From assembly GCF_025465545.1 (NCBI RefSeq), contig NZ_JAODMK010000015.1, positions 1 through 64,000 of the forward strand: a stretch of 64,000 nucleotides of DNA, read 5' to 3'. A model generated the notes under the pieces. The model did not search any database. It was not told the DNA's origin and saw only the letters and a list, made by a program, of their open reading frames with translations. The translations under genes were made by a program, and so were the position numbers. Shown here piece after piece: positions 15,819-50,435 of the stretch (the first letter of the stretch is position 1; the number at the start of each line of letters is the position of its first letter). The DNA comes from Naasia sp. GTDB taxonomy: Bacteria; Actinomycetota; Actinomycetes; Actinomycetales; Microbacteriaceae.

Positions 15819-16064
15819 TCAGCCGCCGGCGAAGGGCGGCAGCACGTCGACCTGAACGCCGAGGGCCTGCTCCGGGCGGCGGCTGACCACGCCGTCGACG
15901 AGGAAGGACCCGTTCCGGAGCACCCGCGCCATGCCGGGTCCGTGCCGGGCGATGAGGTCCTCCTGCAGCCGACCGACCGTGGCCGGCTCGACGAGCACGC
16001 GCTCCTCCTCGACCCCTGCGCTCTCCGCGGCGGCCGCGAAGTAGCGCACCAGCACCTCAGCCAC
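15819..16064 (-). CDS. moaD: Molybdopterin synthase sulfur carrier subunit
   Basis: Ubiquitin-fold sulfur carrier of 81 aa ending in the obligatory double glycine ([10 protein letters not shown]). The C-terminal Gly is adenylylated by the MoeB-type protein and thiocarboxylated. Other family positions are [16 protein letters not shown] and NGSFLVDG. The ATG lies inside the last codons of moaA (8-bp overlap), so both are translated from one leftward transcript. It converges on moaE. Confidence 0.93.
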
Positions 16065-40599: not shown

Positions 40600-42258
40600 T
40601 CAGCGGCGGCGTACCGGGAGGATCAGGCGCGAGTCGTGCCGACCACCGGTGTGCAGCACCTGCGGCCCGGTGTTGATGTCCGACTCGTGCCGCGCGTAGA
40701 CGAGCGGCTTGCGGTAGTGCTTGATGTCGTAGCCCTGCACGACGAGGACCAGGCTGTCCCCGGCGGCGAAGCGCGTGCCCGACGGGAGGATCTCGATGTC
40801 GAGCCGGCTGGGACCGTCGTCCTCGAGCGGGAGCGCGCGGCGATGCGCCAGGACCGGCAGGAACGACGTCGACCGCTCCTCATCGAGCTCCCGGTGGGAC
40901 GCGCGGAGCCAGCCGAGCGCGACCGGGCCATCCTCGAACTGCGCGTAGTACGGGAACGGCACGATGCGGCCCTCCCCGTCGCGCTTGAACAGGCCGACGA
41001 ACACGTCCATGTCTGCCGCCTTCGGGGCGGACATGTGCAGCACGGCCCGGCTGTGCCCGACGATGTCGGTGGGCTCCGCGAACCGGTGCTCGAAGACGAG
41101 CCGCTCGGCCGCGAACGGGTCGCCGAGCCCGTGGTACTCGGCCGTCGCCTCCTGCGGAGGTGCGTCTGCGGTGAGGAGGCCGGTCGAGGCGTCGAGGTGC
41201 AGCTCCCGGTAGTCGATGTCCGGCAGCGGCCACCCCGTCGACTCGATGAACTCCCCCTCGTAGTAGCCGGTGCGGAGCTCGGCACGCACGCGCGGCCACG
41301 CCTCCACGTCGTTGGCGGCATCCTTCAGGAAGCGGTCGAAGAAGTCGCGCTGCAGCTCCACGTTCTCAGGAAGGTAGTACTCGGCCCACTTCTTGCGTCC
41401 GTGCACGTAGAGCCACTTCTGCGGCGACGAGATCCGGCGGAAGCCCTCGAGGGTCCCCCGGGTGTGCAGCCCCTGATCCGACCAGCTGCCGACCACGAAG
41501 GCGGGCACCGTGATCGCCTCGAGGTCGGCGGCCTTGGACGCCCAGAACTCGTCGAAGAAGGGATGCTCGCGGGTCTCCAGCTCGAGATCCTCGATGGGCC
41601 CCGTCGACGCGCCCCAGCGCTCCCAGATGTACGGCCAGAACGACGTCTCCGGGATGCCGCCGTGGCGGGCGACCTCGCGGTAGGTGTCCGACCAGCCCTC
41701 CCACGGGTTGATCGCGGCGAGGTGCGGCGGGTGCAGCGCGGCGACCCGCCACTGTGCGACGGTCAGGTAGGAGACGCCGGACAGGCCGACCTTTCCGTTG
41801 CTCCAGTCCTGCACCCCGGCCCACTCGATCAAGTCGTAGAAGTCCTCCGCCTCCTCTGGCGACAGGTAGCTCGCGGGGCCCTTCGCGTACCACGTGCCCG
41901 GGATGTCGGCGATCACGATGGCATAGCCGCGCGGCACCCAGTAGACCGGGTCAGGGCCCTCGAAGGTGGTCAGGTCGCTCATGTGCTCGGGCTTCACGCC
42001 GCTGGCCGGATAGATCTGGCCGATGGGGGCCGGGTCGTGCTTGCCGTAGGGCGACCAGGCGATCAGGGGCGGCACCGGATCCCCGTCCCGGGGGCGGTAG
42101 ACGTCCGCCTGCACGGTGCGCCCCGAGCGGGTGCGAACCTCCACGTCCCGCTCGATGATCATGTCGTCCCGCGTCTCGGTCCGCGGCTGCGGCGGGACAC
42201 CCCGCCGGGACTCCGGGGTGCTGCGGGGTGGGCGGAGCGGATACGGGGACTCGGGCAT
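40600..42258 (-). CDS. CocE/NonD-family serine hydrolase (X-Pro dipeptidyl-peptidase-like)
   Basis: Alpha/beta hydrolase of 552 aa. The catalytic Ser is in KVGLSGVSYLTVAQWRVAAL near residue 160 (GxSY motif). The family pattern YAIVIADIPGTWYAKGPASY precedes it, GSWSDQGLHTRGTLEGFR carries the likely acid Asp, and YVHGRKKWAEYY the likely His. The C-terminal jelly-roll domain (about 350-545) ends with SDINTGPQVLHTGGRHDSRL. CocE-type enzymes hydrolyse esters such as cocaine or cephalosporin acyl esters. Here an aromatic ester is possible from context. The ATG at 42258 is uncertain, as MIIERDVEV 32 codons later could also be the start. Confidence 0.86.
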   Translation of the reverse strand: MPESPYPLRPPRSTPESRRGVPPQPRTETRDDMIIERDVEVRTRSGRTVQADVYRPRDGDPVPPLIAWSPYGKHDPAPIGQIYPASGVKPEHMSDLTTFEGPDPVYWVPRGYAIVIADIPGTWYAKGPASYLSPEEAEDFYDLIEWAGVQDWSNGKVGLSGVSYLTVAQWRVAALHPPHLAAINPWEGWSDTYREVARHGGIPETSFWPYIWERWGASTGPIEDLELETREHPFFDEFWASKAADLEAITVPAFVVGSWSDQGLHTRGTLEGFRRISSPQKWLYVHGRKKWAEYYLPENVELQRDFFDRFLKDAANDVEAWPRVRAELRTGYYEGEFIESTGWPLPDIDYRELHLDASTGLLTADAPPQEATAEYHGLGDPFAAERLVFEHRFAEPTDIVGHSRAVLHMSAPKAADMDVFVGLFKRDGEGRIVPFPYYAQFEDGPVALGWLRASHRELDEERSTSFLPVLAHRRALPLEDDGPSRLDIEILPSGTRFAAGDSLVLVVQGYDIKHYRKPLVYARHESDINTGPQVLHTGGRHDSRLILPVRRR

Positions 42259-43612: not shown

Positions 43613-45073
43613 TCAGGCCGGCAGTGCGACGCTGTGGGTGTCCATGAACTCCCGCAGCCCCTCGATGCCCATCTCCCGGCCCAGGCCGGACCCCTTCACT
43701 CCCCCGAACGGCGCGCGCTGGTCGAGCACGGCGGCGCTGTGCGCGTTCACGAAGACGTAGCCGGCCTGCAGACGGCCGCCGATCTCTGCCGCCTTGGCCC
43801 GATCGGTCGTCCACACGGATGCGCAGAGGCCCGCCCACGTGTCGTTGGCTGCGGCGACTCCCTGGTCCTCGTCGTCGAACGGGAGAATCGGGATGGTGGG
43901 GCCGAACTGCTCCTCGGTCACCACGCGCAGCGTCGGGTCGGGATCCAGCACGAGCGAGGGCCGAAGGAAGTTGCCGGCGGCGAACTCGCCTCGCGGAAGC
44001 TCGCCGAACTCCCGGATCTCCGCGCCGGCTGCCCGTGCCTCGCCGAGCAGCTCCTCGACGAACGCCTTCTGGGACGGCGCATGCAGCGGGCCCATGGTCG
44101 TGCTGGGGTCGCGCCCGTCGCCGAGCACCACCTTCTCCAGCCGGGCGCCCAGCCCGTCGACGACCTCCTGGTAGCGGGAGCGGTCGACATAGACGCGCTT
44201 GGCGGCCATGCAGATCTGCCCGGTCGTGTCGAAGATGCCGTGGTAGAGCGCATCCAGGCCCTCGTCGCCGAGGTCCGCGTCCTTGAGGATGACGGCCGCG
44301 TCGTTGCCGCCCAGCTCGAGCGCCACCTTGGTCAGCGACTTGGACGCCATCTCCATGATCCTGTTGCCGCCGCGGACGGAGCCGGTGAAGTGCACCATCG
44401 ACACGTCCCGGTTGGACACGAGCGGCTCGCCGATCACGGCATCCTGGCCCGTGACGACGTTGAGCACGCCCGGCGGCAGGTGCTCCGCCATCCGGCGAAC
44501 CAGCAGCGAGGTGGCGAGGGGGGCCGAGGGCGGCGGCTTGAGGATGACGGTGTTGCCGGCGACGAGCGCGTACGGCAGGGAGGCGCCGAGGATCGCGAGC
44601 GGCCAGTTGAAGGGGACGATGATGGTGACGACCCCGCGCGGGACGTAGCTGATGATCGTCTCGTTGGGCGGGCCGGGCAGCGTCGTGGTCTCGTCCACCT
44701 GGTCCGCCAGCCCGGTCGCGAGGCCGCATCGGAAGCCGAACACGAAGACGTCGCCGCGCGCCTCGTCGAGGACCTTGCCGTTCTCGCGGGACAGGATGTC
44801 CGCGTGCTCCTCGAAGTGCTCGCCGATCGCCGCGACCGCGGCATCGATCTGCGCGGCACGCTCCTTCGGGGAGAGCGCCGCCCAACCGGGGAAGGCGGAC
44901 TTCGCGGCCTGCACGGCCTGGAGAGCCTGGTCGCGGGACGCGCCTGCGGCCGTTCCGATGGTTCCGCCGCGAGCCGGGTCGACGACGGTGAGAACGCCCT
45001 CGTCCCCGTCTGCCTCCTTGCCGTCGATGAACAGGCGGGTCGTGACCGCGACCGGCGACTCAGCAATCGTCAT
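43613..45073 (-). CDS. NAD(P)-dependent aldehyde dehydrogenase
   Basis: ALDH-superfamily enzyme of 486 aa. The catalytic Cys is in FDTTGQICMAAKRVYVDRS, the general-base Glu in KVALELGGNDAAVILKDADL, and the cofactor-binding block is VPFNWPLAILGASLPYALVA with VHFTGSVRGGNRIM. FGGVKGSGLGREMGIEGLRE closes the protein. Oxidation of vanillin or syringaldehyde to the acid would feed the neighbouring demethylation pathway, but the substrate is inference. The second ATG at 45073 is chosen because GGAGG lies five bases in front of it; an ATG four codons earlier has no such signal. Confidence 0.9.
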   Translation of the reverse strand: MTIAESPVAVTTRLFIDGKEADGDEGVLTVVDPARGGTIGTAAGASRDQALQAVQAAKSAFPGWAALSPKERAAQIDAAVAAIGEHFEEHADILSRENGKVLDEARGDVFVFGFRCGLATGLADQVDETTTLPGPPNETIISYVPRGVVTIIVPFNWPLAILGASLPYALVAGNTVILKPPPSAPLATSLLVRRMAEHLPPGVLNVVTGQDAVIGEPLVSNRDVSMVHFTGSVRGGNRIMEMASKSLTKVALELGGNDAAVILKDADLGDEGLDALYHGIFDTTGQICMAAKRVYVDRSRYQEVVDGLGARLEKVVLGDGRDPSTTMGPLHAPSQKAFVEELLGEARAAGAEIREFGELPRGEFAAGNFLRPSLVLDPDPTLRVVTEEQFGPTIPILPFDDEDQGVAAANDTWAGLCASVWTTDRAKAAEIGGRLQAGYVFVNAHSAAVLDQRAPFGGVKGSGLGREMGIEGLREFMDTHSVALPA

Positions 45074-45135
45074 TGAATCCTCCATGGGTTCCCAGGGGTC
45101 GGGGCTCGAGCCCGGTGACCAGCCCGGTGTCAGTG

Positions 45136-45194
45136 ACGCTACCCGCGGCCGCAGAACCGGTCAACGAGATTGTCGTCACTCCCAGCGACATTCT
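45136..45194 (-). promoter_or_regulatory. Promoter and dyad upstream of the aldehyde dehydrogenase gene
   Basis: On the minus strand TTGACC (45164-45159) and TAGCGT (45141-45136) are spaced by 17 bases. Directly upstream lies a dyad (45167-45194) with arms AGATTGTCG and CGACATTCT, eight of nine positions paired. It does not match the ATTGTNNACAGAAT motif, so a different regulator is implied. Confidence 0.5.
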
Positions 45195-45271
45195 GCGGCG
45201 ACGGCGGGCGCCGCATTCGGTGCGGCGGCGACTCTGCATCCGGTCCCGCGGGGCCCGTGCCGCCCGGCGCC

Positions 45272-45883
45272 TCAGTCGTCGGGCTCACCCGCACCATCGG
45301 TGCAGGGATTGCCGGGTTCCGGCGCCTGTGGACCACCGGCGAACAGAGCCAGGAACTGGGGAATGCGGGGATCGCTCGCCGATGCCACCCTCAGCTGCCG
45401 TCCCCACGCGGTGAGGATCACCTGATCGTCGGGATCGTCGTAGGGGCTCAGGATGATGTAACGCTCCCGGCCGATGTACGCCGCCTGGACGGTGTGTTCG
45501 AGCTCGTGCACGTCGGCGACGGGGAGGCTCGGCGGATACGTGACCCAGGCGGCTCCGTGCTCCATGGAATGCACCGCCAGCTCCGGGGGGACCGGGATCG
45601 AGTACACGCCGCAGTTGGCCCACACCGGGGCGTGATCGCCGCCTGCCGGCGGCCGCAGCGGGTAGTCCACAGGAGTGGTCACGTGGTTGCGGGAGGCGAT
45701 GGCGTACTCCTGGGTGCCCTCGGGACCCTTCGGGACCTCGACGTGGTGCTCGCCCCAGCCGTTCAGGACCCCCAGGACGGCGGTCAGGATGCAGGCGGCC
45801 CCGAGCAGGGAGACGAACCAGAGCACGCCCGGACGGCTGTCCCGAGGGCGCACCGGAGCGCTAGGACTGAGGGACTTGCTCAT
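45272..45883 (-). CDS. DUF3105 membrane-anchored protein
   Basis: Protein of 203 aa with one N-terminal membrane segment (about residues 20-42) after a short basic cytoplasmic stretch, so the bulk is outside. The DUF3105 signature is seen as NHVTTPVDYPLRPPAGGDHA, WANCGVYSIPVPPELAVHSM and EHGAAWVTYPPSL, with several His and one Cys that could bind a metal. The function is unknown. Its start lies 23 bases inside the end of the ABC exporter gene, so it is co-translated with it. It may assist maturation or handling of the exported product; that is inference. Confidence 0.82.
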   Translation of the reverse strand: MSKSLSPSAPVRPRDSRPGVLWFVSLLGAACILTAVLGVLNGWGEHHVEVPKGPEGTQEYAIASRNHVTTPVDYPLRPPAGGDHAPVWANCGVYSIPVPPELAVHSMEHGAAWVTYPPSLPVADVHELEHTVQAAYIGRERYIILSPYDDPDDQVILTAWGRQLRVASASDPRIPQFLALFAGGPQAPEPGNPCTDGAGEPDD

Positions 45884-48680
45884 AGACCGCTCTTCGCTCG
45901 CTCACCGCTCGTTCGACGGCCGCGGCCAGGGCCGGGTACCGAGCCGCGACGTCCTGGTAGTCCGACAGGTGCAGGACGGTGACCCGGAGAGCCTGCTCCG
46001 CCGTCACCGTGGCCGTCCTCTGCGTCACTCCGGCCAGCACCAGCTCGCCGAACACGTCGCCCGGGCCGAGGGACCGAATCCTTCTCGCGAACGGGGCCGC
46101 CCCGATCGTGACCTTCGCCACGCCCTCCTCCACGATGTAGACGGCGTCCGCGCGTTCGCCCTCGCGCACGACGACCTCACCGGCCGGGCGGGTCTCCCGG
46201 TGCGTGCGGCTCGCCAGCGCGTCGAGCGCCTCGGCGGGCGCGTTCTCGAACAGTGCGATCTGAGCGACCGGTCTTCCCTCGCGCCTCGCTCCGTCGCGGC
46301 CGGCAGCCATCCGGGCATACCATCCGCCGGCCGCGAGGAGATCCTGGGGCCGCCCCTGCTCCGTGATGCGGCCGTCGCGCAGGACGACGATGTGATCCGC
46401 TCGCGCGACCGTGTGGAGCTGGTGGGTGACCGTCACGGTGGTCCGCCCGGCTCGGGCGGCGGCGAGCGTCTCGAGCACCTCGTCGGCGACATCGCGGTCG
46501 AGGGCGCTCGTCGGCTCGTCGAGGAGCAGCAGTGCAGGGTCGCCGAGCAGCGCCCTGGCGATGCCGACGCGCTGCCGCTGGCCGCCGGAGATCCGCGCCG
46601 CGCGCTCGCCCATGAGGGTGTCCAGGCCTTCGGGGAGCGACGCGACGAATTCGGAGAGCTTGGCCGCTTCCACCGCGGAGGAGATCTGGGCGTCCGTCAC
46701 CCCCGTGCGCCCGAGCACGATGTTCTCTCGCAGGGTGGCGTCGAACAGGAACGTGTCCTGCGAGACCAGGCCCACCCGCTCCCGCAGCTGGTTCACGGCG
46801 ACGTCGCGCAGATCGACCCCGTCCATCGTGATCGTGCCGGCGGTGGGGTCGTAGAAGCGCATGAGGAGCGCCAGCAGGGTGCTCTTGCCCGATCCGGAGG
46901 GTCCGAGGATGGCGGTGTGGCTGCCCGCGGGGATGGACAGCGTGAGGGAGTCGAGCACCTCGCCGCCCGGCGCGTACCCGAACGAGACGTCCTGGAACTC
47001 GAGAGAGGCGTTCAGCGGGGGAACCGGCACCGGGTTCTCCGGGTCGCTGACCGAGACCGGCTCATCGAGGAGCTCCGAGATGCGCTGGAGCGCGCCCGAC
47101 GACGTCTGCATCGTCTCAACCAGATTGGCGAGGTCGGTCACGGGTGAGATCACGGTCGGCAGCAGACCCAGGATGGCGACGAGGGTGCCCAGGGTCATCG
47201 ACCCGGTGATGACCAGATATCCGCCGTAGCCCAGCACGACCAGCAGCGGCAGGCTCGTCACGAGCATGACGGCGGAGTCGAGAACGCCGCTGTAGATCGA
47301 CATCCGCATGCTCGTCTTGAACATGGCGTCGACCCGGGAGGCGTAGCCCCGCAGGGCGTACGCGCCGGCTCCGTAGGCCTTGAGCACCGATTGACCGGCG
47401 ACCGACTCCTGGAGGGTTCCCATCGCCGTGCCCATGGCGGTCTGCTGCCGCAGGCTGGCGTCCCTCAGCCGAGCGCTCATGGCACGGTATGCCGCCGCGA
47501 GGAGCGGCACCGTCACCAGGACGACGAGACCGAACTGACTGTTCAGAACGAGTATCGCGACCGTGGCGGCGACGAAATTGAGGATTGCGGGGACCGGGAC
47601 CACCGCGAGCTGGCCGATTGCCTGCTGGCCGGTTCGCAGATCGTTGGACATTCGGGAGAGGAGGTCGCCGACCGAGGTGCGGGAGTGGAACTCGTGGGAA
47701 AGGCGCTGGATGTGGGAGAACATCCGGGTCTGCAATCCGAAGAATATGCGGAGGTCCAGCAGAGATGTGACATATGCCGTGCGCAGTGCGAGCAGCGACC
47801 GATAGACGAAGAGCGCAGCGAGCACGGTGACGAACAGCAGAAGCAGATTGATATCGCGCTGCGGAAGAATGGTGTCGATCAGATACTTGGTGGTCAGTGG
47901 CATGACGACGGTCAATGCCACGCCGATGAGGACATAGGTGAGAAGTTCCGCCACCCGCCAGCGGTAATCGCTCACCGAAGGCTTCATGTGCGGCCAGAGC
48001 CGCTGCAGCGGCCGGCGCAGGTCCGTGCGACCGCCCGGGTCGTTGGACCACTCCTTGACGAGCTGCGCCAGCGGCCGCCCGAAGACGGCGATCGCCGCCT
48101 CATCCCGCCGATCGTTCGCCGCAAGCCGCAGGTAGCGGCCCAGGCTCGGGCGGCCATGCTCCTTCATCAGTGAGTCGACGAAGCAGGTGGCAGCCGCATA
48201 CGCCTCGAGGGTCAGCTCGTGCTGTTCGCTGCCGAACGCCTGGCCGAGGTTCGCCGACAGCGGCCGACCTGACTCCTCCGCCGCCTGCCGGAGGCCGGTC
48301 ATCAGATCCTCGACCGAGGGTCCCGTGCCCGTCATCGCGGCGACGACGCCGCTCAGGCCGACGGAGACGATCGGCTCCGCATCGCCGAACATCCGCGTGA
48401 TGAGCTCGACGGTCAGGGTGAGCGGAAGCGGCGGCGCATCCCCCTCCGGCCCGACCATCCGGACGACGGCCGCGTCCGCGGCCTGCGTGCCGACGTTGAG
48501 GTCGATGGACATGAAGGGCACCAGCAGGATCGAGACCTTCTCCCCCCGCAGATCCGCGTCAAGGAGCGTGCAGCACGCCGTCGCTATCGCCTGCGCGGAC
48601 CGGCGTTCGGCTTCGATCCGTTCGCGCAGGCGAGGATCCCCCGCGGAACGCACCTCGATGACCGGGGCCTGGGCCGCCAT
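45861..48680 (-). CDS. ABC exporter with degenerate peptidase-like N-domain and C-terminal cyclic-nucleotide-binding domain
   Basis: Fusion of 939 aa. Residues about 1-235 resemble a peptidase MA (gluzincin) domain: TLTVELITRMFGD aligns with the HExxH helix but lacks both His, then VGLSGVVAAMTG, and a helical tail YAAATCFVDSLMKEHGRPSL and VFGRPLAQLVKEW. Residues about 240-520 are a six-helix exporter domain and about 555-790 the ATPase, with Walker A GPSGSGKST (593-601), signature ISGGQ (697-701), Walker B LLLLDEPTSALD and the H-loop in VTHQLHT. Residues about 805-935 are a cNMP-binding-type domain (VVREGERADAVYIVEEGVAK, GPGDVFGELVLAG). It follows the precursor-like gene by 60 bp and a hairpin, so it probably exports that product. 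Confidence 0.85.
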   Translation of the reverse strand: MAAQAPVIEVRSAGDPRLRERIEAERRSAQAIATACCTLLDADLRGEKVSILLVPFMSIDLNVGTQAADAAVVRMVGPEGDAPPLPLTLTVELITRMFGDAEPIVSVGLSGVVAAMTGTGPSVEDLMTGLRQAAEESGRPLSANLGQAFGSEQHELTLEAYAAATCFVDSLMKEHGRPSLGRYLRLAANDRRDEAAIAVFGRPLAQLVKEWSNDPGGRTDLRRPLQRLWPHMKPSVSDYRWRVAELLTYVLIGVALTVVMPLTTKYLIDTILPQRDINLLLLFVTVLAALFVYRSLLALRTAYVTSLLDLRIFFGLQTRMFSHIQRLSHEFHSRTSVGDLLSRMSNDLRTGQQAIGQLAVVPVPAILNFVAATVAILVLNSQFGLVVLVTVPLLAAAYRAMSARLRDASLRQQTAMGTAMGTLQESVAGQSVLKAYGAGAYALRGYASRVDAMFKTSMRMSIYSGVLDSAVMLVTSLPLLVVLGYGGYLVITGSMTLGTLVAILGLLPTVISPVTDLANLVETMQTSSGALQRISELLDEPVSVSDPENPVPVPPLNASLEFQDVSFGYAPGGEVLDSLTLSIPAGSHTAILGPSGSGKSTLLALLMRFYDPTAGTITMDGVDLRDVAVNQLRERVGLVSQDTFLFDATLRENIVLGRTGVTDAQISSAVEAAKLSEFVASLPEGLDTLMGERAARISGGQRQRVGIARALLGDPALLLLDEPTSALDRDVADEVLETLAAARAGRTTVTVTHQLHTVARADHIVVLRDGRITEQGRPQDLLAAGGWYARMAAGRDGARREGRPVAQIALFENAPAEALDALASRTHRETRPAGEVVVREGERADAVYIVEEGVAKVTIGAAPFARRIRSLGPGDVFGELVLAGVTQRTATVTAEQALRVTVLHLSDYQDVAARYPALAAAVERAVSERRAVYEQVPQS

Positions 48681-48701
48681 GTCACTTCCCCCCTGAACGC
48701 A

Positions 48702-48729
48702 AGGAGGGCGGCCCGGAAGCCGCCCTCCT
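48702..48729 (-). terminator. Hairpin between the precursor and exporter genes
   Basis: AGGAGGGCGGC and GCCGCCCTCCT form a perfect 11-bp stem over a six-base loop, starting 11 bases beyond the precursor stop. It probably acts as a partial terminator or 3' stabiliser so that the precursor is made in excess over the exporter. Confidence 0.65.
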
Positions 48730-48740
48730 CGACTGCATGA

Positions 48741-49271
48741 TCAGTACCAGACCCAGCAGCGGTAGTGCGTCCAGAAGGTGCCGAAGTTGGCGGCCAAGTA
48801 GCCGCCGCCCGGCTTGCCCGCGTTGCTGGCGGTGTTGTTGCACATGTTCCGGTAGAAGGTGTAGACCGAGCCGTTCGTCGGGGCTCCGATGTCCCATTTG
48901 AAGACCCAGACGTGGCCCTGCACGTCGTCGTCGTCCTCCGGGGCCGCGGCGGCCGTCATCAGCGAGTCGACCAGCTTCCTGTCCTCGTCGTCCTGCAGTC
49001 CGTCGCGCAGCTCCATGATCGAGTCGGCCACGCGCTTGGCGGCCTCGTCGTCAGGCGCAGCGGCGCCGGCGTCGTCAGTGAGGGCTGCCGGCGCGTCGCC
49101 GGCCGCCTCCGCTTCCGCCCGCTGCACCATGTCCTGGGGCAGGGTCTCCCGGAGACCCTGACGCAGCAGCCCAGCGAAGAGGTCCTGCTCCTCCTCGGTG
49201 AAATCCTTCTGGATCCCATCGAGCTGGTTCAGCACCCGCTCCAATCTGTCTGTGTCGAGTTGTGTAGACAT
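48741..49271 (-). CDS. Precursor-like small protein: acidic helical leader plus aromatic-rich two-cysteine C-terminal core
   Basis: I do not recognise a named family. The protein has 176 aa. Residues 1-117 are helical, acidic and Ala-rich, with two similar segments (LDGIQKDFTEEEQDLFAGLL and MELRDGLQDDEDRKLVDSLM), and end in PEDDDD. Residues about 118-176 are of quite different composition, with about 14 aromatic residues, Gly/Asn-rich stretches (NNTASNAGKPGGGYLAANFG) and two Cys (144, 172), ending TFWTHYRCWVWY. This looks like a leader-core peptide precursor. There is no signal peptide; the adjoining ABC exporter is the likely route out. AGGAG precedes the ATG by five bases. No modifying enzyme is obvious. 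Confidence 0.75.
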   Translation of the reverse strand: MSTQLDTDRLERVLNQLDGIQKDFTEEEQDLFAGLLRQGLRETLPQDMVQRAEAEAAGDAPAALTDDAGAAAPDDEAAKRVADSIMELRDGLQDDEDRKLVDSLMTAAAAPEDDDDVQGHVWVFKWDIGAPTNGSVYTFYRNMCNNTASNAGKPGGGYLAANFGTFWTHYRCWVWY

Positions 49272-49601
49272 GACTTCTCCTATCTGACCGTCATTGGACG
49301 ACCGTTATGTGGGCCTCGGCCCGGGTTTCGCATTCTCAGATGCGCGATCGCTCGTGCGACCGTATGCAGATTCAGATGTACGCCGATGCGGTACATGCCT
49401 GTGTTCGGACCCCGACACTCGGTCCGTTCGCTTGCCGACAATCTCCTTTGACAGTCGTGCGCTACCATCCTTCGGGCGGAATTCGGAGTCGAAACGTGGG
49501 GACAGTCAAGTCCTCTGCGCTTCACGCCGCAATAGGCTCTTTTTCCGCTCTCATCTGGGGGTATTTCCGAGCGCGACTGCCAGTGCCATCCACGCGTCGG
49601 C
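49272..49601. other. Long AT-richer upstream region of the precursor gene with an inverted repeat
   Basis: 330 bp without a supported gene, of visibly lower GC than the surroundings. The clearest element is ATGTAC-N9-GTACAT at 49376-49396, about 105 bases in front of the precursor start, a possible operator. A TTGACT on the minus strand near 49510 is a weak -35 candidate without a good -10. Short open frames here lack ribosome-binding sites and similarity. Confidence 0.5.
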
Positions 49602-50435
49602 TCAGGCGAGCTCCTCGATAAGGGCCAGCAGTGCAGGGATCGGGGAGGCCGCTGCGGGAAGCACCTGCACGCAGACGTGGTCGGCGCCGGCATCGAGGTG
49701 GGCCCGGACCGCCGCGGCCACGGCGTGCGCGTCGCCGTGGGCGACGATCGCGTCGACGAGTCGGTCGCTCCCGCCCTCGGCGATGTCCTCCTCGGTGAAG
49801 CCGGCGCGCCTCATGTTGCCGGTGTAGTTGCTCATCGCCAGGTAGCTCGCGAGGAAGGCCCGGGCCGTGTCCCGCGCCGAGTCGGCATCGGGATCCAGCA
49901 CCACGGTCAGCTCGGGCGCGACCAGGGAGTCGACGCCCAGCGCGGAGCGCGCGTCGCGCGTCTGCTCCGGAATGGTCAGGTAGGGGTGGGTTCCCGCGCT
50001 GCGCTCGGCCGCCATCGCGAGCATGCGAGGGCCGAGGGCGGACAGCACGCGCTTCTCGACCGGCACCCCGCACTCGTCGAGGATGTCCAGATACCCGGCC
50101 ATGGCGTCGAGCGGCCGGACCCGTTCCGGTGTCGCTTCTCGATGGCCGGAGCCGATGCCGAGCAGGATGCGGCCGGGATGGCGGCCGGAGATCCGGTGAT
50201 AGGAGGCCGCCAGCTCGCGCGGGTCCGACTTCCAGATGTTCACGATCCCCGTTGCGACCACGATGGACCGAGTGGAATCGAGCAGCACCTCCGCCGGCCG
50301 GAGGTCCGAGCCGGGAGAGCCGCCCTGCCAGATGGCGCCGTAGCCGAGCTGTTCGACGGCGCGTGCCAGGTCGGCGTCGACGTGGCCGACCCCCCGCCAC
50401 ACACCGACTGCACCCAATCGCTCCCGCCAGCCCAT
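49602..50435 (-). CDS. LLM-class flavin- or F420-dependent oxidoreductase
   Basis: Luciferase-like TIM-barrel protein of 277 aa. Landmarks are GVGHVDADLARAVEQLGYGA, TRSIVVATGIVNIWKSDPRE, LLGIGSGHREATPERVRPLD and the C-terminal HLDAGADHVCVQVLPA. The pattern agrees with the F420-type LLM subfamily found in actinobacteria, but the cofactor is not proven. The ATG at 50435 is preferred for GGGAGG six bases upstream. It follows the peptide ABC importer on the same strand and lies upstream of the precursor gene across a 330-bp gap, so a link to either is uncertain. Confidence 0.87.
   Translation of the reverse strand: MGWRERLGAVGVWRGVGHVDADLARAVEQLGYGAIWQGGSPGSDLRPAEVLLDSTRSIVVATGIVNIWKSDPRELAASYHRISGRHPGRILLGIGSGHREATPERVRPLDAMAGYLDILDECGVPVEKRVLSALGPRMLAMAAERSAGTHPYLTIPEQTRDARSALGVDSLVAPELTVVLDPDADSARDTARAFLASYLAMSNYTGNMRRAGFTEEDIAEGGSDRLVDAIVAHGDAHAVAAAVRAHLDAGADHVCVQVLPAAASPIPALLALIEELA

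Follow-up and report, generated by a model that had tools for sequence, protein, structure and literature searches.

A locus of three consecutive minus-strand genes from a Naasia species, situated within the 64,000-nucleotide stretch of DNA analysed here (the window), is best read as leader-guided peptide export in a new form, one that would lie outside the PCAT family. We hold it to be moderately probable that the locus pairs a leader-core peptide with a pseudo-peptidase-type exporter carrying a cyclic-nucleotide-binding (CNB) tail. The peptide, P0001, is probably a secreted product of an undescribed type, because rare relatives of the exporter, P0002, occur elsewhere and one of them is found near modified-peptide genes. 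The original prediction, made from the DNA alone, had put forward, as one possibility, a new ribosomally synthesised peptide of the leader-core type with a dedicated exporter, and that one relative lends weight to the proposal, as it shares its contig with a lanthionine synthetase (LanL) and a precursor-like, Trp/Tyr-rich protein with two Cys.

Layout of the locus and its predicted precursor

The features of the locus, in window coordinates, are these:

48741..49271, minus strand: P0001, predicted 176-aa leader-core precursor (from the ORF, coding statistics and composition)
48936..49271, minus strand: leader part of P0001, residues 1-112, acidic, with five predicted helices of low-to-middling confidence
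48741..48935, minus strand: core part of P0001, residues 113-176 plus stop, with 5 Trp, 5 Tyr, 4 Phe, Cys144 and Cys172
49277..49281, minus strand: AGGAG, likely ribosome-binding site of P0001, just 5' of the ATG
48702..48729, minus strand: hairpin between the P0001 and exporter genes, with a 12-pair stem and a 4-nt loop (from folding)
45861..48680, minus strand: P0002, 939-aa ABC exporter with an N-domain, ABC_membrane (251-514), ABC_tran (576-725) and cNMP_binding (832-914)
48015..48680, minus strand: N-domain of P0002, about residues 1-222, gluzincin-like and lacking HExxH, with a putative leader-docking role
45939..46187, minus strand: C-terminal cyclic-nucleotide-binding domain of P0002, residues 832-914 (from Pfam)
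45272..45883, minus strand: P0003, 203-aa DUF3105 protein with an N-terminal hydrophobic stretch (by eye)

The 176-aa ORF, the hairpin, the ABC exporter and the overlapping DUF3105 gene had all been named in the original prediction, and all were located again on the minus strand, the three ORFs at the positions given. The P0001 and exporter genes are separated by 60 bp on the same strand, and the exporter gene overlaps that of P0003 by 23 bp. The hairpin between the first two genes (folding the 60 nt gave -33.8 kcal/mol) was not called by a terminator scan that depends on a T tract, and it may lower expression of the exporter relative to that of the precursor. A search of positions 45000-49700 found no sigma-70-type promoter. 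Just upstream of P0001 there is a direct repeat, GACCGTCAT / GACCGTTAT (window 49286-49308, 14 bp start to start), which is possibly the site of a regulator or possibly due to chance.

The surroundings of the locus were assigned using Pfam. Downstream lie genes for an aldehyde dehydrogenase, an MFS transporter and an S15-type hydrolase, and upstream are those for a luciferase-like protein and a dipeptide-type ABC importer. The S15-type X-Pro dipeptidyl-peptidase/hydrolase (window 40600-42258, PF02129, 5.5e-40) is encoded on the same strand, three genes past DUF3105, and is a possible protease candidate, unlinked to the locus.

The small ORF of P0001 looks like a real gene because of its GC content by codon position (0.67/0.44/0.89), which follows that of its neighbours, its codon score (+0.31 in frame versus -0.76 in both other frames of the same strand, with six neighbouring genes as the reference) and the AGGAG upstream of its ATG. 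Residues 1-112 contain 25% Asp+Glu and 1.8% Trp+Tyr+Phe (two aromatic residues), while in residues 113-176 the aromatic share is 22% (14/64) and both Cys of the protein (144 and 172) are found, along with 2 Ser and 5 Thr. Aromatic richness is not itself unique, as a stretch of the S15-type hydrolase has 13 in 64 residues (the best of seven neighbouring proteins), and it is the compositional break near residue 112, rather than this richness, that is the sharp feature of P0001. The model that AlphaFold builds from the single sequence, with a mean pLDDT of 49.9, places five helices within residues 1-107 (10-residue block means of 36-79) and is unreliable at the C-terminus, where values are below 50. 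The two-part protein described originally, with an acidic helical N-terminal part and a Trp/Tyr/Phe-rich C-terminal part containing two Cys, is therefore recovered in its composition, its helices being seen only in this low-confidence model. Dipeptides of the GG, GS or GA type occur at positions 69, 129, 134, 155 and 156, and none is present at the break near residue 112. A duplication within the leader was considered and rejected, its score being equalled by 138/2000 shuffles.

As far as we have looked, P0001 appears to be an orphan within the databases covered. It has no family match in Pfam or NCBIfam at E up to 1, and its leader matches none of the profiles for NHLP or Frankia peptide precursors at the same threshold. 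In this it is unlike the NHLP and Frankia-peptide precursors, which it otherwise resembles in having a long leader followed by a distinctive C-terminal core. No convincing relative was found in PHROGs, the PDB, plasmids or phages, nor in 248 other genomes of the same family. At E <= 0.01 there are matches in 10 of 249 family genomes, the window's own included; the nine weak ones (E 0.0014 to 0.0099, none past residue 144) were taken as probably compositional. The core part alone had no match at E <= 10 in 5 genomes, in a search run without a positive control, and the hits it had among phages (7 records) and plasmids (5 records), all at E 0.5 or higher, were put down to chance. Pattern scans of viral contigs with P0001 and with the window N-domain, which reach close relatives only, gave none that was confirmed. 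Homologues of P0001 in genomes lacking the exporter, which the original prediction had named as counter-evidence, were not found in these searches, yet neither were homologues of any kind.

The exporter, its N-terminal domain and its relatives

P0002 is built as a B-type TMD followed by an NBD, with the Pfam domains ABC_membrane, ABC_tran and a C-terminal cNMP_binding. The TMD and NBD resemble those of general B-type exporters, for example MsbA and Sav1866. In plasmids, 3384 records match P0002 at E <= 1e-30 and none covers 80% of it, with a TMD-NBD identity of 31-36% among the 12 matches listed. The first ~220 residues have no Pfam family (nothing convincing was found for residues 1-235), and the C39 peptidase domain, said from the outset to be absent, has no match at E up to 1 in the whole protein or at E up to 10 in the N-domain alone. 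Since this domain was tested for and not found, P0002 falls outside the PCAT family.

Exporters of the PCAT/AMS and HlyB types are like P0002 in having an extra N-terminal protease-type domain ahead of a B-type TMD-NBD. They differ in that P0002 has no C39 domain, its N-domain aligns with gluzincins, and P0001 has no double-Gly at the predicted leader-core break. In the C39-like group a dead domain recruits the substrate, HlyB being one example (PMC6363468, PMC10986499). A closer parallel for the combination of domains is HetC of Nostoc PCC 7120, which also carries protease-type and cyclic-nucleotide-binding domains on one ABC exporter; the HetC CNB domain is N-terminal, binds ppGpp in vitro and accompanies an active C39 domain, whereas in P0002 the CNB domain is C-terminal and the protease-type domain has no catalytic motifs (PMC10986499). 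No description of a pseudo-peptidase exporter of lanthipeptides, or of a gluzincin-bearing bacteriocin exporter, was found in the open-access literature, and an earlier description is possible.

The N-domain is not recognised by Pfam or by a PDB profile search, and its structure model (pLDDT 34.5) gave no meaningful Foldseek match (best E 2.5). By eye, the N-domain of the window and those of three relatives (see below) share the layout of Peptidase_MA_2-type gluzincin proteases. To assemble a reference set of gluzincins, 60 relatives were searched with PF13485; 7 had a match at E <= 0.01, and 1 exceeded the family cut-off. Seven loci yielded six segments with HExxH and then W.[SAE]EG, two of these segments being overlapping copies of one protein. 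When the four-row N-domain profile was compared with these six segments using hhalign, the result was an E-value of 2e-5, a probability of 77 and a score of 42.0 over 202 columns; among 199 column shuffles the highest score was 28.4, and the reversed profile reached 16.6. The score of the other three N-domains drops to 27.6 when the relative called G613 is left out, and single N-domain sequences score from 13.0 to 34.3, with the window N-domain alone at 26.6, a value that was exceeded by one (27.4) of the 62 segments taken from elsewhere in window ORFs. On these alignments a gluzincin-like fold is likely, not proven. The motifs HExxH, HxxEH and W.[SAE]EG are absent from all four N-domain stretches and each has only 2-4 His, so that zinc protease activity is unexpected. 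Because the domain aligns with gluzincins but HExxH is missing in every one of the four, we propose that it may dock the leader without cutting it, by analogy with the C39-like domain of HlyB.

Of the 396 genomes sampled in the phylum, at least 4 have the N-domain, namely that of the window and those we call G405, G545 and G613, this figure being a lower bound with at most 6 or 7 candidates scored per genome among the matches shown for large searches. G405, a contig of an Actinomycetota MAG, was reached from the window N-domain (E 5.2e-20), G545 from the N-domain of G405 (E 0.005) and G613 with a profile of three rows (E 2.5e-7). Several further matches were discarded. One N-domain search (4/394 genomes) gave, besides the window, L016, L017 and L018, which were dropped as their ORFs proved unrelated on reading; that with the G405 N-domain (12/396) gave, besides the window, G405 and G545, nine weak matches to overlapping ORFs with no exporter; and that with the three-row profile (7/396) gave three weak extras (L045-L047) judged unrelated. 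A contig pattern scan using two patterns from the two-row alignment returned only the G405 contig, and a genus-level search had the N-domain in one of nine genomes, the window's own. G405 is the sole match to the window N-domain among 24 genomes listed for its class and G545 the sole match to the three-row profile among 39 listed for its class; since G613 is absent from both class lists and has the mark 'same phylum', each of the four apparently comes from a different class.

All four exporters have the N-domain, TMD and NBD in common, and the C-terminal CNB domain is also present in those of G405 and G545, the G613 contig ending inside the NBD. P0002 is colinear with the G545 exporter over residues 165-930 (33% identity) and aligns with that of G613 over 162-712 (35% identity). 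These values of 33-35% are no higher than the TMD-NBD identities among the 12 plasmid matches listed (31-36%), and on this comparison of sequences it is the shared N-domain, not TMD-NBD identity, that marks the exporter group. Individual members have peculiarities of their own. The G405 exporter gene (L013 1936-4948) has an in-frame TAG past the N-domain, and its reading frame is broken within the membrane domain; it is either a pseudogene or an assembly error. The G613 exporter (L044 429-2927) has an FHA domain (PF00498, 1.4e-14) ahead of the gluzincin-like domain, which suggests phospho-dependent control.

Peptide genes, modification enzymes and DUF3105

The whole G545 contig (L040 1-12640, 12,640 bp) encodes LanL, the precursor-like protein, an S8 protease, the exporter and a nucleotide cyclase (PF00211, 1.7e-27), as well as a GAF protein, a Crp-type regulator and a response regulator. 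LanL is a class IV lanthionine synthetase (NF038150, 680.8 bits, cut-off 650). The precursor-like protein, of 107 aa, matches Frankia_peptide (1.6e-6) and NHLP models (9.6e-7 and 2e-4), all under their cut-offs, and ends in a 22-residue tail that is half Trp/Tyr and has two Cys, GCWQCYMSYYWYWDYYSQTYYE; by eye it has no evident sequence relation to P0001. The stop of the S8 protease gene overlaps the ATG of the exporter, which starts 5 kb past LanL. Because this 5-kb gap holds two minus-strand genes, for the response regulator and the cyclase, it is only likely, and not certain, that LanL and the exporter form one cluster. From this neighbourhood we infer that the G545 exporter serves the RiPP pathway nearby. 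Leaders of class III or IV lanthipeptides are removed by S8 and M1 proteases (PMC10885120). A precursor-like small ORF, that of the 107-aa protein, thus shares a contig with the exporter in G545; on the contigs of G405 (5.2 kb) and G613 (3.1 kb) no precursor gene can be seen next to the exporter.

Through G545, with its exporter, LanL and precursor-like gene on one contig, the locus has a likeness to class IV lanthipeptide clusters, and the P0001 core does contain Cys together with Ser/Thr, as lanthipeptide cores do. Unlike these clusters, the window's genome (99% complete) has no LANC_like (PF05147) match, in a search that matched 2 of 14 control genomes, 1 of them over the cut-off. With no LanC match, the P0001 product would not be a lanthipeptide of known class, and so it would be unmodified, disulfide-bonded, or modified by an enzyme family outside the LanC search. 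Using Pfam, no lanthipeptide, YcaO or other recognisable peptide-modifying enzyme was found among ten flanking and other window genes, the remaining window ORFs being judged from the first 70 residues of each. A radical SAM protein at 16057 was considered as a peptide modifier and rejected as a molybdenum cofactor enzyme. None of P0001, P0002 and P0003 is a protease.

P0003 is a full member of the DUF3105 family (PF11303, E 5.5e-40, 136.9 bits versus a cut-off of 25), for which no paper was found in the open-access literature. It has 39-45% identity to three plasmid-borne members, in which its Cys91, Cys194 and His67/84/105/109 are kept. The family is widespread, being present in 85 plasmid records. 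DUF305 adjoins DUF3105 in all three plasmid regions inspected (L050, L051, L052), with CcdA/TlpA thiol proteins in one and CopC in another, and no gene annotated as an ABC exporter is near DUF3105 in the stretch shown of these three records, whereas the P0003 gene overlaps that of the exporter. No DUF3105 was seen on the G545 contig (ORFs read, Pfam). Our guess is that P0003 works at the outer face, in the chemistry of disulfides or of metals.

Proposed mechanism, alternatives and meaning

In the mechanism that we propose, the exporter N-domain would recognise the acidic helical leader of P0001 and, as a protease fold minus its zinc site, would dock the precursor uncut, in the manner of HlyB with its dead C39-like domain. 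The ABC core would then translocate the Trp/Tyr/Phe-rich core, transport possibly being gated by a nucleotide on the C-terminal CNB domain, and the leader would be removed by a protease separate from the pump. Outside, the two Cys of the core may form a disulfide, perhaps aided by the coupled DUF3105 protein.

Part of the evidence can be arranged differently. If P0001 were exported whole, as a small, unmodified secreted protein whose acidic helical part plays a structural or chaperone-like role and is never cleaved from the product, this would agree with three genes that include neither a protease nor a C39 domain, with a genome lacking a LanC match and with the five helices modelled in residues 1-107. 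We judge this unlikely, as a leader-core precursor is favoured both by the abrupt change in composition around residue 112 and by the presence of peptide genes close to the exporter of G545. The LanL and precursor-like genes near that relative, together with the extra N-domain and the placing of P0001 on the same strand with a gap of 60 bp, also argue against a pump for a small molecule or lipid, next to which P0001 would be a cytoplasmic or regulatory protein lying upstream by chance. Such a pump is suggested by the likeness of the TMD and NBD to MsbA and Sav1866 and by how common TMD-NBD matches of 31-36% are on plasmids (12 matches listed), but we regard it as distinctly improbable here.

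M1 enzymes are gluzincins, and the N-terminal placement of the domain is as in PCATs, so the N-domain might be imagined to be an active protease working through other residues, which would make the pump a new class of peptidase-containing exporter. M1 zinc proteases do process the leaders of class III and IV lanthipeptides (PMC10885120). With HExxH, HxxEH and W.[SAE]EG all missing from the four N-domains, and only 2-4 His in each, we give this very little credence.

Returning to the reading that we prefer, of a leader-core peptide and an exporter that docks it uncut, a broader version of it is plausible, and we put it forward tentatively and at less than even confidence. The four genomes may represent a rare and separate Actinomycetota exporter lineage, in which a dead gluzincin was recruited for leader docking independently of C39 and a cyclic-nucleotide switch was added, and which exports peptides that are rich in aromatic residues and have a pair of Cys, these being of lanthipeptide type in one host and of an undescribed type here. 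If this is true, a protease domain on a peptide pump would have been turned into a non-cutting docking domain at least twice in evolution, and a nucleotide-gated step in peptide export would be suggested, as has been proposed for HetC. The N-domain would in addition become a search key for peptide clusters that are missed by enzyme-based mining, such as the window locus with its lack of a known modification enzyme.
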